64,000 nt of DNA from Spirulinaceae cyanobacterium SM2_1_0 (GTDB lineage Bacteria > Cyanobacteriota > Cyanobacteriia > Cyanobacteriales > Spirulinaceae). The position numbers and the translations under genes are program-made. How positions within the stretch are numbered: the first letter of the stretch is position 1; each line of letters opens with the position of its first letter. The DNA lies in the NCBI GenBank assembly GCA_012031265.1, contig JAAUTY010000003.1, positions 62,001 to 126,000 of the forward strand, written 5' to 3'. Shown one piece after another: positions 38,840 to 62,189 of this stretch. A model generated the notes under the pieces. The model was given only the letters and a program-made list of their open reading frames with translations, was not told the DNA's origin and ran no database searches.

Positions 38840-38880
38840 TAACACACTTGACAAAAACCCGAAAAACGGTAACTATAGAT
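38840..38880 (+). promoter_or_regulatory. Promoter of the first riboswitch unit with near-match NtcA site
   Basis: A perfect -35 TTGACA (38849-38854) precedes TAACTATAGA (38871-38880), which holds a TATAGA -10-like box. Spacing to that box is 20 bases, or 16 to TAACTA. The -35 box is overlapped by GTA-N8-GAC (38840-38853), one base from the NtcA consensus GTA-N8-TAC. If NtcA binds here it could block or activate transcription. This is inferred from sequence only. Confidence 0.5.
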
Positions 38881-38892
38881 ACAGAACAAAGC

Positions 38893-38990
38893 AATCGTTC
38901 ATCCCCGCCAGTCACTGGCAGTGGGACGGAAGTAGGGAGAATGTCCCGAAGGAACGCGCCTCGGAAGCTCTGCATTATTCTCAAGAGGCG
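38893..38990 (+). ncRNA. Glutamine riboswitch (glnA RNA motif), copy 1
   Basis: Stem P1 is CGTTC (38896-38900) with GAACG (38952-38956). P2 is TCCC/GGGA, carrying an extra hairpin GCCAG/CTGGC. P3 is GGGA/TCCC. The conserved joining sequences GGACGGAAGTA and GAAGGAACG match the cyanobacterial glnA RNA, which binds L-glutamine. After P1, CGCCTC (38957-38962) is the exact complement of GAGGCG (38985-38990), the ribosome-binding site of the DUF4278 gene at 38997. Translational control through this pairing is inferred. Confidence 0.88.
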
Positions 38991-38996
38991 AAAACC

Positions 38997-39173
38997 ATGA
39001 AACTCTCTTATCGCGGTCACAGCTACGAAGCCAACACCAATCCAGTTGCAGGTCAGGACATAGCCGTCCCTGGCACCTATCGCGGCACGAAGACCACCCT
39101 GCACATGACCCGCGTGCCGGTGCAGCACCAGACGCCGTTGACCTATCGCGGTGTCCGTCACCTCGGCGGCTAA
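38997..39173 (+). CDS. DUF4278 small protein, copy 1 (under glutamine riboswitch)
   Basis: 58 residues, beginning [15 protein letters not shown] and ending [11 protein letters not shown]. Three YRG motifs (residues 5-7, 28-30, 50-52) are the mark of DUF4278, small cyanobacterial proteins of unknown function. GAGGCG lies 6 bases before the ATG. The pI is basic, with several His, Arg and Lys and few acidic residues. Its position behind a glutamine sensor suggests a role in nitrogen response, perhaps as a small inhibitor or regulator like the GS-inactivating factors, although there is no sequence likeness to those. Confidence 0.88.
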
Positions 39174-39228
39174 AGCTGCAATTGAATGTGCTGATTGTCC
39201 GATTTTGATTGAATTGCATTCCGCATTG

Positions 39229-39313
39229 AGCGTTCATCCCCCTAGTGGGGACGGAAGTAAGGGCAAAACCCTGAAGGAACGCGCCTCGTCAACTCAATAT
39301 TGCCTAGGAGGCG
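39229..39313 (+). ncRNA. Glutamine riboswitch (glnA RNA motif), copy 2
   Basis: P1 is CGTTC (39231-39235) with GAACG (39277-39281). P2 is TCCCC/GGGGA with loop CTAGT. P3 is AGGG/CCCT with loop CAAAA. The same GGACGGAAGTA and GAAGGAACG cores occur as in copy 1, while P2 and P3 pair with different bases, which supports the fold. CGCCTC (39282-39287) complements GAGGCG (39308-39313) at the next ribosome-binding site. It begins about 55 bases after the first DUF4278 stop, so it may lie in the same transcript. Confidence 0.88.
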
Positions 39314-39319
39314 AAGATC

Positions 39320-39493
39320 ATGAAACTTTCTTATCGCGGTCACAGCTACGAAACCCGTAACAACGCCGTTGCGAGCAACGTTGAAGTCCAAGGTCAGTAT
39401 CGTGGTGTGAAGGCGGCGCTGCACTCGGCGCGTCTGCCAGTCCAGCACGACAATCAATTGACCTATCGCGGCGTTCGCTACACGGGCGGCTAG
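39320..39493 (+). CDS. DUF4278 small protein, copy 2 (under glutamine riboswitch)
   Basis: 57 residues, [17 protein letters not shown] to LTYRGVRYTGG. The first ten residues and the end are nearly identical to copy 1, and the middle differs (YRGVKAALHSARLPVQHDN). AGGAGGCG precedes the ATG by 6 bases. The YRG motif occurs three times. The tandem arrangement arose by duplication of the whole unit (riboswitch plus gene). Function unknown. Confidence 0.88.
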   Translation: MKLSYRGHSYETRNNAVASNVEVQGQYRGVKAALHSARLPVQHDNQLTYRGVRYTGG

Positions 39494-39634
39494 GATGCCA
39501 GTACAGAAACGCGGTTTCTTTACTGAGAAGCGTGAAATCTCGTCCACTCACCCACGAAGAAGCCGGGTTTCTATGACTACTGAACCGATACTCTCGGTTC
39601 TGCACCGCCTGCAAACTGAATGAACGACTGAATG

Positions 39635-39670
39635 AAGCCAAGCGAGGATATATCCTCCGCTTGGCTTTTA
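39635..39670. terminator. Terminator between the DUF4278 pair and larE
   Basis: AAGCCAAGCG (39635-39644) pairs with CGCTTGGCTT (39658-39667), enclosing AGGATATATCCT, itself palindromic, and is followed by TTA. The A-rich left and T-rich right sides allow use from both directions. It lies about 140 bases after the second DUF4278 stop and about 40 bases from the larE end. Confidence 0.75.
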
Positions 39671-39710: not shown

Positions 39711-40594
39711 TCATTGAGCCGTCGCCGTGGCGACGACTTCAGGAGCGAGCACACGGTTGAGTTTGCCGCTGCGGTAACCTTCGAGGTCGAGGCTGACGTA
39801 CTGGAAGCCAAAATCTTGAAAAGCTGCAACGAGAGCGTCAAGATCAGTCTGGGCAACAAAATCACGAATCTGCGCGGGGGGAAGTTCGATGCGGGCGGTG
39901 TCTCCGGCAGAGCGCACGCGCAGACTCCGCCAGCCAAGGTTGCGGAGATACACTTCGGCACGACCGACTCGCTGGAGCTTCGCCAGGTCAATGCTCTCGC
40001 CGTAGGGAAAGCGGGAGCTAAGGCAGGGCTGAGCGGGCTTGTCCCACCAGGGGATGCCGAGGTGGCGGCTGATCTCGCGGACTTCGGCTTTACTGATGCC
40101 GATTTCGGCTAAGGGCGATCGCACCCCTCGCTCTTGAGCCGCCTGGATGCCCGGCCGATAGTCGCGGAGGTCATCGGCATTGACGCCATCGACGACGTAG
40201 GGATAGCCGCGCTCAATCGCCAGCGGCTTGAGGGTGTCGTGGAGTTCACTTTTGCAAAATAACAGCGGTTAACTGGATTGGACGCATAATTGGGGTTGGT
40301 AAGTTCGTGCGTCTCGACCAGTTCGTGCCTCAGACTGAGCGCGTCCGCTTGTTGGCAGGCTGCCTCGAGGTCTTCGGGTAATAATGAGGGAGACACGGCG
40401 GTGACGGCGAGGACGCGATCGCCCAGCACGTCCAAGGCAATCTTGGCGACGAGGGTGCTGTCAATCCCGCCCGAGTAGGCGACGAGAGCCTGCTCCATTG
40501 AGACAAAAAGTTCGCGCAGTTGCTCGAGTTTGGCTGCGATCATCGGTAAATGGCTGTCAGTCAACAGGCTTCTATTGTACTCATCGCTTACCAT
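39711..40594 (-). pseudogene. larE: LarE-type ATP-dependent sacrificial sulfur transferase, frameshifted
   Basis: Two overlapping frames together make a normal LarE of about 290 residues. The first (40109-40594) has the PP-loop YSGGIDSTLVAK and NPVNRCYF. The second (39711-40124) has SPLAEIGISKAEVREISR and PCLSSRFPYGE. The sequence coding for NRCYF-CK has four T where five are needed (plus strand AAAA near 40256-40259); restoring one base gives NRCYFCKSELHDTLKPL and rejoins the frames. LarE gives up a cysteine sulfur to make the nickel-pincer cofactor. Possibly a sequencing error. Confidence 0.85.
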
Positions 40595-61743: not shown

Positions 61744-62189
61744 AAACCGGTTGGGTCACGGCGCAATTTGAAAGCGCCTAAATCTAGATGGAGATTACCA
61801 CTGCACCTTTTGAGGAAACAATCCAGGGGGGAGGGATAGGTAGCGGCAGACAATCCAGAGTTTTCCTCACCCGGCGATTCATGCCACGACTCCTGCCAAA
61901 CGCCTGACCGGCTCTTCATCAGGAGGGCTGCCAATCTGGGATGCTCCCCATCGTTACCCGTTTTCAATCCCCGTAAACAGAAGTGAGCGGAGCATTTTGT
62001 CTGGCTAGATCAGGGCGTTGTAATCAAAGGAACTGCACCAATTGGTCGCGTGAGCGGCTGGGTTCCAGCGCAGATCATTGAAATCATTAATGCCAATACT
62101 GTCCGTGCTCGTGAGGGCTACATGGCGTCAAGCGATCAGCTGCTGTAGCTTTTTTAAGCGTCTGGGTCATTTATGCTTCCTGAAGTACT
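61744..62189. other. Intergenic region with shared 20-mer and an open fragment
   Basis: 446 bases upstream of the importer operon and downstream of the folate transporter. It contains TGCCAATCTGGGATGCTCCC (61929-61948), also at 48183. A plus-strand open stretch up to a stop at about 62147 reads KGTAPIGRVSGWVPAQIIEI, then RAREGYM; it may be a decayed gene end that I cannot name. No cobalamin or nickel riboswitch is visible. Confidence 0.4.

Follow-up and report, generated by a model that had tools for sequence, protein, structure and literature searches.

Two glutamine riboswitch-DUF4278 units of a Spirulinaceae cyanobacterium look like one dicistronic transcript with a switch for each cistron

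Introduction

The glutamine riboswitch is a unique RNA-based means of glutamine sensing in cyanobacteria and raises the expression of the genes that it controls, according to a review from 2018 (PMC6316151). Type-1 glutamine aptamers mainly precede genes for DUF4278 proteins, and DUF4278 is also the N-terminal moiety of IF17, where it is dispensable for function and promotes stability (PMC6316151). In Synechocystis, the leader of gifB, the gene for IF17, combines an aptamer of the family described below with the NtcA repression to which the gif genes are subject and with a product that starts with DUF4278 (PMC6316151). IF17, however, has an IF7-homologous C-terminal part, whereas the proteins described here end after DUF4278 and are encoded by two cistrons. 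A preliminary description of the locus had set the Synechocystis factor against DUF4278 as a contrast, mistakenly so, since DUF4278 is part of that factor. A second close system is Prochlorococcus MED4 PMM1846, a 7-kDa DUF4278 protein with an expression-raising glutamine riboswitch and an NtcA motif (PMC6316151). Its setting differs in being that of the marine picocyanobacteria, whose DUF4278 genes are under type-2 switches, and the excerpt describes multiple copies, with no mention of a single operon in which every gene has a switch.

Glutamine riboswitches in a row have been described before. Tandem glnA RNAs were mentioned in 2010 (PMC2864571), and a survey from 2022 counted 157 doublets and 4 triplets, for which the aptamers had to lie less than 300 nt apart with no open reading frame (ORF) between them (PMC9481103); at the present locus, by contrast, a 58-amino-acid DUF4278 gene separates the two aptamers. 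The PII-interacting PirA of Synechocystis is likewise a small protein under nitrogen control and has NtcA binding motifs (PMC8092223). An identity of DUF4278 with PirA was considered and dropped; the string “DUF” occurs 0 times in the main text of the PirA paper (PMC8092223).

The association between the glutamine riboswitch and DUF4278 is thus already published. What our computational analysis adds is an apparent single-promoter layout, the overlap of aptamer base C60 with the pairing partner of the Shine-Dalgarno (SD) sequence, a clade of stand-alone proteins, and relatives that lack glutamine synthetase I (GS-I), parts of which may already be in the primary paper, Klahn 2018. In the open literature searched, we found no account of dicistronic glutamine riboswitch genes, and no title on such a layout was among those listed there for cyanobacterial intercistronic riboswitches.

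Two glutamine aptamers, each preceding a stand-alone DUF4278 gene

The window is a 64,000-nucleotide stretch (positions 62,001 to 126,000 of contig JAAUTY010000003.1) of Spirulinaceae cyanobacterium SM2_1_0, whose genome assembly comprises 5.03 Mb in 149 contigs. A cmscan of the entire 64-kb window on both strands, with 4227 families at the gathering threshold, returned two matches to the glutamine riboswitch family RF01739, both on the plus strand, and no further RF01739 match at gathering score (Table 1). The preliminary description had recognized a pair of glnA-type RNAs, both directly followed by a DUF4278 gene of 57 to 58 residues, and this was borne out: in the Rfam covariance model, both aptamers exceed the gathering cut-off of 35 bits (E values of 3.3e-9 for aptamer 1 and 4e-10 for aptamer 2) and are full length (model positions 1 to 53 of 53), while both products score well above the curated PF14105 cut-off of 25.3 bits. 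The aptamers end 36 nt (unit 1) and 34 nt (unit 2) before their genes and are 268 nt apart.

Table 1. Features of the two-unit locus (coordinates are those of the window)
Feature	Position	Strand	Remark
TTGACA, -35-like hexamer	38848..38853	+	only promoter seen for the pair
Exact NtcA-type box GTAACTATAGATAC (GTAN8TAC)	38869..38882	+	encloses -10-like TATAGA
Aptamer 1, type-1 glutamine riboswitch (glnA RNA)	38894..38960	+	RF01739, 54.5 bits
Aptamer 1, P1	38896-38900 with 38952-38956	+	
Aptamer 1, G22/G23	38928-38929	+	
Aptamer 1, C60	38957	+	
Anti-SD CGCCTC, unit 1	38957..38962	+	directly 3' of P1; complementary to 38985-38990
SD GAGGCG, gene 1	38985..38990	+	6 nt 5' of ATG
Gene 1, stand-alone DUF4278, 58 aa	38997..39173	+	PF14105, 49.1 bits
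55-nt spacer between units	39174..39228	+	without NtcA box
Aptamer 2, glutamine riboswitch	39229..39285	+	RF01739, 57.7 bits
Aptamer 2, P1	39231-39235 with 39277-39281	+	
Aptamer 2, G22/G23	39253-39254	+	
Aptamer 2, C60	39282	+	
Anti-SD CGCCTC, unit 2	39282..39287	+	directly 3' of P1; complementary to 39308-39313
SD GAGGCG, gene 2	39308..39313	+	6 nt 5' of ATG
Gene 2, stand-alone DUF4278, 57 aa	39320..39493	+	PF14105, 52.6 bits
Terminator-like hairpin and short U tract	39634..39668	+	likely transcript end

Both aptamers possess G22-G23 within GGAAGTA and a C60 that adjoins P1, the numbering having been verified against the crystal sequence. The earlier statement that the copies use different bases in P2 and P3 holds for P3, which is GGG/CCC in unit 1 and AGG/CCU in unit 2 in the RF01739 alignments. 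It does not hold for P2, the core of which is nearly alike in both; unit 1 stands out there by an extension at the apex and a single mismatch. Folded singly, neither leader was more stable than its shuffles (z of -0.46 and -0.51), so that it is the covariance model and the relatives, not folding energy, that carry the case for riboswitches. Both leaders are probably glutamine responsive, and to call the products “glutamine-responsive small regulators,” as was done before, appears to be a fair guess.

The two proteins are identical at 36 of 57 aligned residues, and their genes differ with a dN of 0.27 and a dS of 0.96 (NG86), a dN/dS of about 0.28. Together with the clade across several genera described below, this argues that both ORFs are real genes, and by sequence the two products are stand-alone DUF4278 copies that have diverged. 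Neither has a C-terminal IF7-type domain or an NCBIfam match up to an E value of 1, IF7A included. The gene 2 protein found no match among solved structures in a sequence search (up to an E value of 10) and none, by protein, in a phage collection. Its AlphaFold model, built on 53 aligned rows, is of such low confidence (pLDDT 66.9, pTM 0.22) that it gives no evidence on the fold. Downstream, on the minus strand (39711-40594), what is presumably a LarE-like sulfur transferase seems to be spread over two overlapping frames, through a frameshift or an assembly error.

Glutamine riboswitch genes in the source genome and its relatives

The source genome (G000) has four RF01739 matches, the two of the window and one each on contigs C43 and C20. 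The C43 riboswitch precedes a short IF7-type gene with the same kind of promoter as that in the window. This gene scores 34.6 bits with NF052599, below the cut-off of 70, and its protein has two weak matches among solved structures (E values of 0.88 and 0.97) with coiled-coil-like names. Besides this short gene, there is one full IF7-type match (100.3 bits), as well as GS-I (692.9 bits) and a further GS-like match that is weaker (229.5 bits). DUF4278 also matches four times, twice in the window and in a pair on another contig; by reading, the latter two are not IF7 fusions, and no IF7 match in the genome adjoins DUF4278. The second DUF4278 pair (59 and 136 aa; contig C83, L119 3036-3215 and 3468-3878) is without RF01739, and similar short-plus-long pairs were observed in several relatives.

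Among 99 genomes, that of the source included, 68 carry RF01739, with 119 matches listed, one of which (G002:C43, 30.6 bits) is below the cut-off. We classed the genes behind all 119 riboswitches with patterns of our own and then corrected the classes by hand, moving one gene of G065 to the gifB-like class, those of G030, G008, and G002 to the small membrane proteins, and a truncated one of G010 to the stand-alone class. About 45 of the 119 encode DUF4278-IF7 fusions (one added by hand), 15 encode stand-alone DUF4278 (one cut at a contig end), 15 encode an IF7-type protein alone, and 22 encode small membrane-type proteins; the remainder are of other kinds. The label of a DUF4278 fragment with IF7 in G057 was discarded as a pattern artifact; NF052599 finds nothing in that genome. 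In G095, the riboswitch on contig C4 stands before an apparent Rieske-type gene (by reading), which may be chance.

The membrane-type proteins, found behind 22 of the 119 riboswitches in 22 genomes, have about 65 to 80 aa, hydrophobic stretches, and an NTKEE-like motif, and two examples gave no Pfam or NCBIfam match above the cut-off. After hand correction, 4 of the 22 have an exact NtcA-type box, and several leaders are without a GAGG core. The C20 riboswitch of the source genome (G000:C20:36176-36248, L004 1501-1573, minus strand) belongs to a small membrane-type protein. We also observed at least 120 loci on viral contigs that match a strict glutamine-I aptamer pattern. Eighty (L187 to L266) were read and 70 had a gene that could be guessed; 12 of these 70 genes encode mini-proteins with two YRG-like motifs, like a shortened DUF4278.

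An apparently single NtcA-type promoter for the pair

An exact GTAN8TAC box, which we take to be the NtcA consensus, precedes unit 1. Over the 100 nt upstream, 70 of the 119 glutamine riboswitches have such a box, mostly at 21 to 32 nt, and 49 have none. Single-base shuffles gave a mean of 3.4 and a maximum of 8 (200 shuffles), and a control stretch from -300 to -200 gave 2 of 119. The box is found with 12 of the 14 complete stand-alone DUF4278 genes, 40 of the 44 gifB-like genes, 6 of the 15 IF7-alone genes, and 3 of the 19 membrane-type genes (original pattern labels). The two stand-alone units without it are second tandem units, one in the window genome and one in G001.

Six tandem pairs were found in 5 of the 99 genomes. 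Two are complete stand-alone DUF4278 tandems (the window genome and G001), one is a stand-alone tandem cut at a contig end (G010), and three are gifB-like (G010, G048, and G070), those of G048 and G070 being of one genus with products predicted to be identical. From the first stop codon to the second aptamer, the tandems measure 55 to 103 nt. The exact box is absent at 5 of the 6 second units, the exception being the gifB-like second unit of G010; the second stand-alone unit of G010 has a TTGACA nearby. A single promoter per tandem is therefore not a rule.

A generic scan gave no promoter-like site on the plus strand and no terminator-like site in the spacer between the units, which also folds no better than shuffles. 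The scan missed the unit 1 promoter as well, so the lack of a unit 2 promoter in it is weak evidence. A promoter of its own for unit 2 was nonetheless set aside, as unit 2 has no exact NtcA box and no promoter-like site on its strand in this weak scan. Behind gene 2, the terminator-like hairpin (-22.8 kcal/mol, z of -4.63) was equaled by 0 of 200 shuffles; a consensus terminator scan reported no terminator-like site in the region, this hairpin likewise. With an NtcA-box promoter only at unit 1, and with second units mostly box-less across the tandems, the pair looks like a dicistronic transcript with a translational switch for each cistron. The preliminary description had passed over the box, this layout, the SD-masking helix, and the two further riboswitches of the genome.

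A predicted masking helix that starts at C60

In both units, the first base of the anti-SD is C60 of the aptamer. Of the 119 riboswitches, 111 could be scored, the other 8 having no usable start. The best helix begins exactly at the first base 3' of P1 in 75 of the 111. Helix scores average 15.3, versus 11.1 in shuffles. A GAGG core is present in 97 and absent in 14 of the 111 leaders. When the SD is placed by this core alone, all six pairs are complete in 66 of the 97 and incomplete in 31. Anti-SD base 2 covaries with its SD partner (G-C in 73, A-T in 11, G-T in 4, and nonstandard in 9 of the 97; Fisher p of 1.9e-11 with kinship ignored).

C60 is a C in 118 of the 119 riboswitches, a figure that is partly built in because the search model includes this base. 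The stronger point is that it is a C in 18 of the 19 leaders in which its SD partner is not a G, as expected if the aptamer needs it. A G23-C60 “linchpin” pair forms on glutamine binding (PMC11477058), and a restraint that had been placed on G23-C60 in modeling turned out to be right for the bound form (PMC5393176). Since C60 is both the foot of the masking helix and the partner of G23 in the bound state, glutamine would take the foot pair, and the bound G23-C60 pair would be the ON mechanism of these leaders. The ON direction of the window switches is itself carried over from other genes, and because the masking helix abuts P1, coaxial stacking could equally stabilize it. No anti-anti-SD inside the aptamer was seen by eye in the output of the helix search, and a mechanism of that kind was dropped for the C60 idea.

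The window proteins belong to a clade of stand-alone DUF4278 proteins

In a tree of 83 DUF4278 domains, which has 58 columns only and in which many forks do not resolve, both window copies fall in a stand-alone clade with proteins of G001, G003, G006, G010, G011, and G055 (94/95; inner fork without G055, 98/95), to which proteins of Oscillatoria, Halomicronema (two), and Leptolyngbya also belong. This clade spans several genera and is apart from the gifB-like domains, that is, the IF17 N-terminal ones, and the window proteins are without the DWRF stretch typical of IF17 N-domains. Within it, the tree neither joins the two window copies as clear sisters nor clearly separates them. Stand-alone proteins of G053, G078, G081, and G097 branch elsewhere, so that the stand-alone form was gained, or retained, on more than one occasion. 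An origin of the window proteins as truncated IF17 is disfavored by the clade and the missing DWRF stretch, as far as 58 columns allow.

The four Oscillatoria, Halomicronema, and Leptolyngbya loci (L162 to L165) have no RF01739 match above the gathering score. The 150 nt upstream of these stand-alone DUF4278 genes contain a GTAN8TAC box in all four cases, at a distance of 60 to 68 nt from the start codon.

Stand-alone DUF4278 genes in genomes without a GS-I match

Ten of the 99 genomes have no GS-I match at an E value of 1e-150. Two of these are incomplete (G039, 75%; G041, 61%), and the other eight (G031, G042, G057, G064, G081, G082, G097, and G098) are well completed and also have no IF7 match at an E value of 0.01. 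The converse fails, as G011, G030, G034, G060, G076, and G080 have GS-I and no IF7 match. G031, G057, G081, and G097 keep 11 glutamine riboswitches in total, including those of three stand-alone DUF4278 genes with NtcA boxes (G081 and G097) and of three genes for longer proteins with a DUF4278-like start, by reading, and no exact box (G031 and G057). The riboswitch and DUF4278 are thus both kept in these genomes without GS-I or a detectable IF7.

All four have GSIII. With the limit relaxed, G057 shows GS-like matches that reach 240 bits and so fall short of the GS-I cut-off. The weak GS matches of G031, G081, and G097 (51 to 56 bits) adjoin the GSIII match and sit in an equally long open frame, and thus most likely lie within the GSIII gene. 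The stand-alone DUF4278 proteins of G081 and G097 likely have a target other than GS-I. They are on a different branch and come from one genus, which makes them weak evidence for the target of the window proteins; unlike G081 and G097, the source genome itself has GS-I and two IF7-type matches. The target of the window proteins is probably not GS-I itself.

Discussion

We consider it fairly likely that the locus is one dicistronic unit that needs two signals of nitrogen surplus, release by NtcA and the presence of glutamine, and whose products have a target that is probably not GS-I. When nitrogen is poor and 2-oxoglutarate is high, NtcA would occupy the box, within which the -10 element lies, and keep transcription off. 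Under ample nitrogen, a single mRNA would run from the promoter to the hairpin. On this mRNA, without glutamine, both starts would be masked by pairing of the CGCCUC 3' of P1 with the SD sequence GAGGCG; with glutamine bound, P1 would be locked, C60 would be taken by G23, the foot of the masking helix would be lost, and ribosomes could start. As each switch governs only the adjacent start codon, the second cistron would need a copy of its own. Like other small nitrogen regulators of cyanobacteria, the products most likely act by binding to a protein involved in nitrogen metabolism.

That a known riboswitch-gene unit was simply duplicated in tandem here, with gene dose as the sole effect, is plausible, if somewhat short of an even chance. 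The repeat runs from aptamer to stop codon while the flanks align poorly, and the six tandem pairs in 5 of the 99 genomes, with the G001 copies grouping together in the tree (100/98), fit repeated local duplication. The divergence at 21 of the 57 positions at a dN/dS of about 0.28 speaks against gene dose as the whole account, suggesting that both copies were kept and may have diverged in role.

A further reading, which we consider less likely than not, is that glutamine signaling in cyanobacteria originally worked through stand-alone DUF4278 proteins as effectors, with a target other than GS-I, and that IF17 is one later fusion of the module with a GS inhibitor.

Stand-alone DUF4278 could instead act in trans as a detached N-half of IF17 that stabilizes an IF7-type protein or steers it onto GS-I. 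This is rather unlikely, despite the abundance of DUF4278-IF7 fusions behind the riboswitches and the stabilizing part played by the IF17 N-terminus (PMC6316151); the source genome, moreover, has no such fusion, yet has the riboswitch-controlled short IF7-type gene with the same kind of promoter. Against it stand the separation of the window clade from the IF17 N-domains and the missing DWRF stretch, the coexistence of stand-alone proteins with fusions in G006, G010, and G078, and the stand-alone proteins of G081 and G097, which have no GS-I or IF7 match.

It is very improbable that the two aptamers act jointly as a pseudo-cooperative switch, be it on gene 2 or on the mRNA: glutamine riboswitch doublets are frequent and the gap here is below the 300-nt limit of the survey, but the survey demands that no ORF lie between the aptamers (PMC9481103), where here a DUF4278 gene with a masked start is found, and the scan gave no terminator-like site in the spacer.

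DUF4278 is the commonest partner of the riboswitch and has been assigned no role of its own in the literature examined. Both the doubled layout and the hints that the target is not GS-I make useful leads. Through the overlap at C60, the way in which the switch turns on can be tested at a single base, and the genomes that lack GS-I and IF7 matches but have riboswitch-controlled stand-alone DUF4278 genes are a clean place in which to seek the target of the domain. If stand-alone DUF4278 proteins were indeed the original effectors, the window would hold a duplicated, separately gated pair of them, made only in nitrogen surplus.
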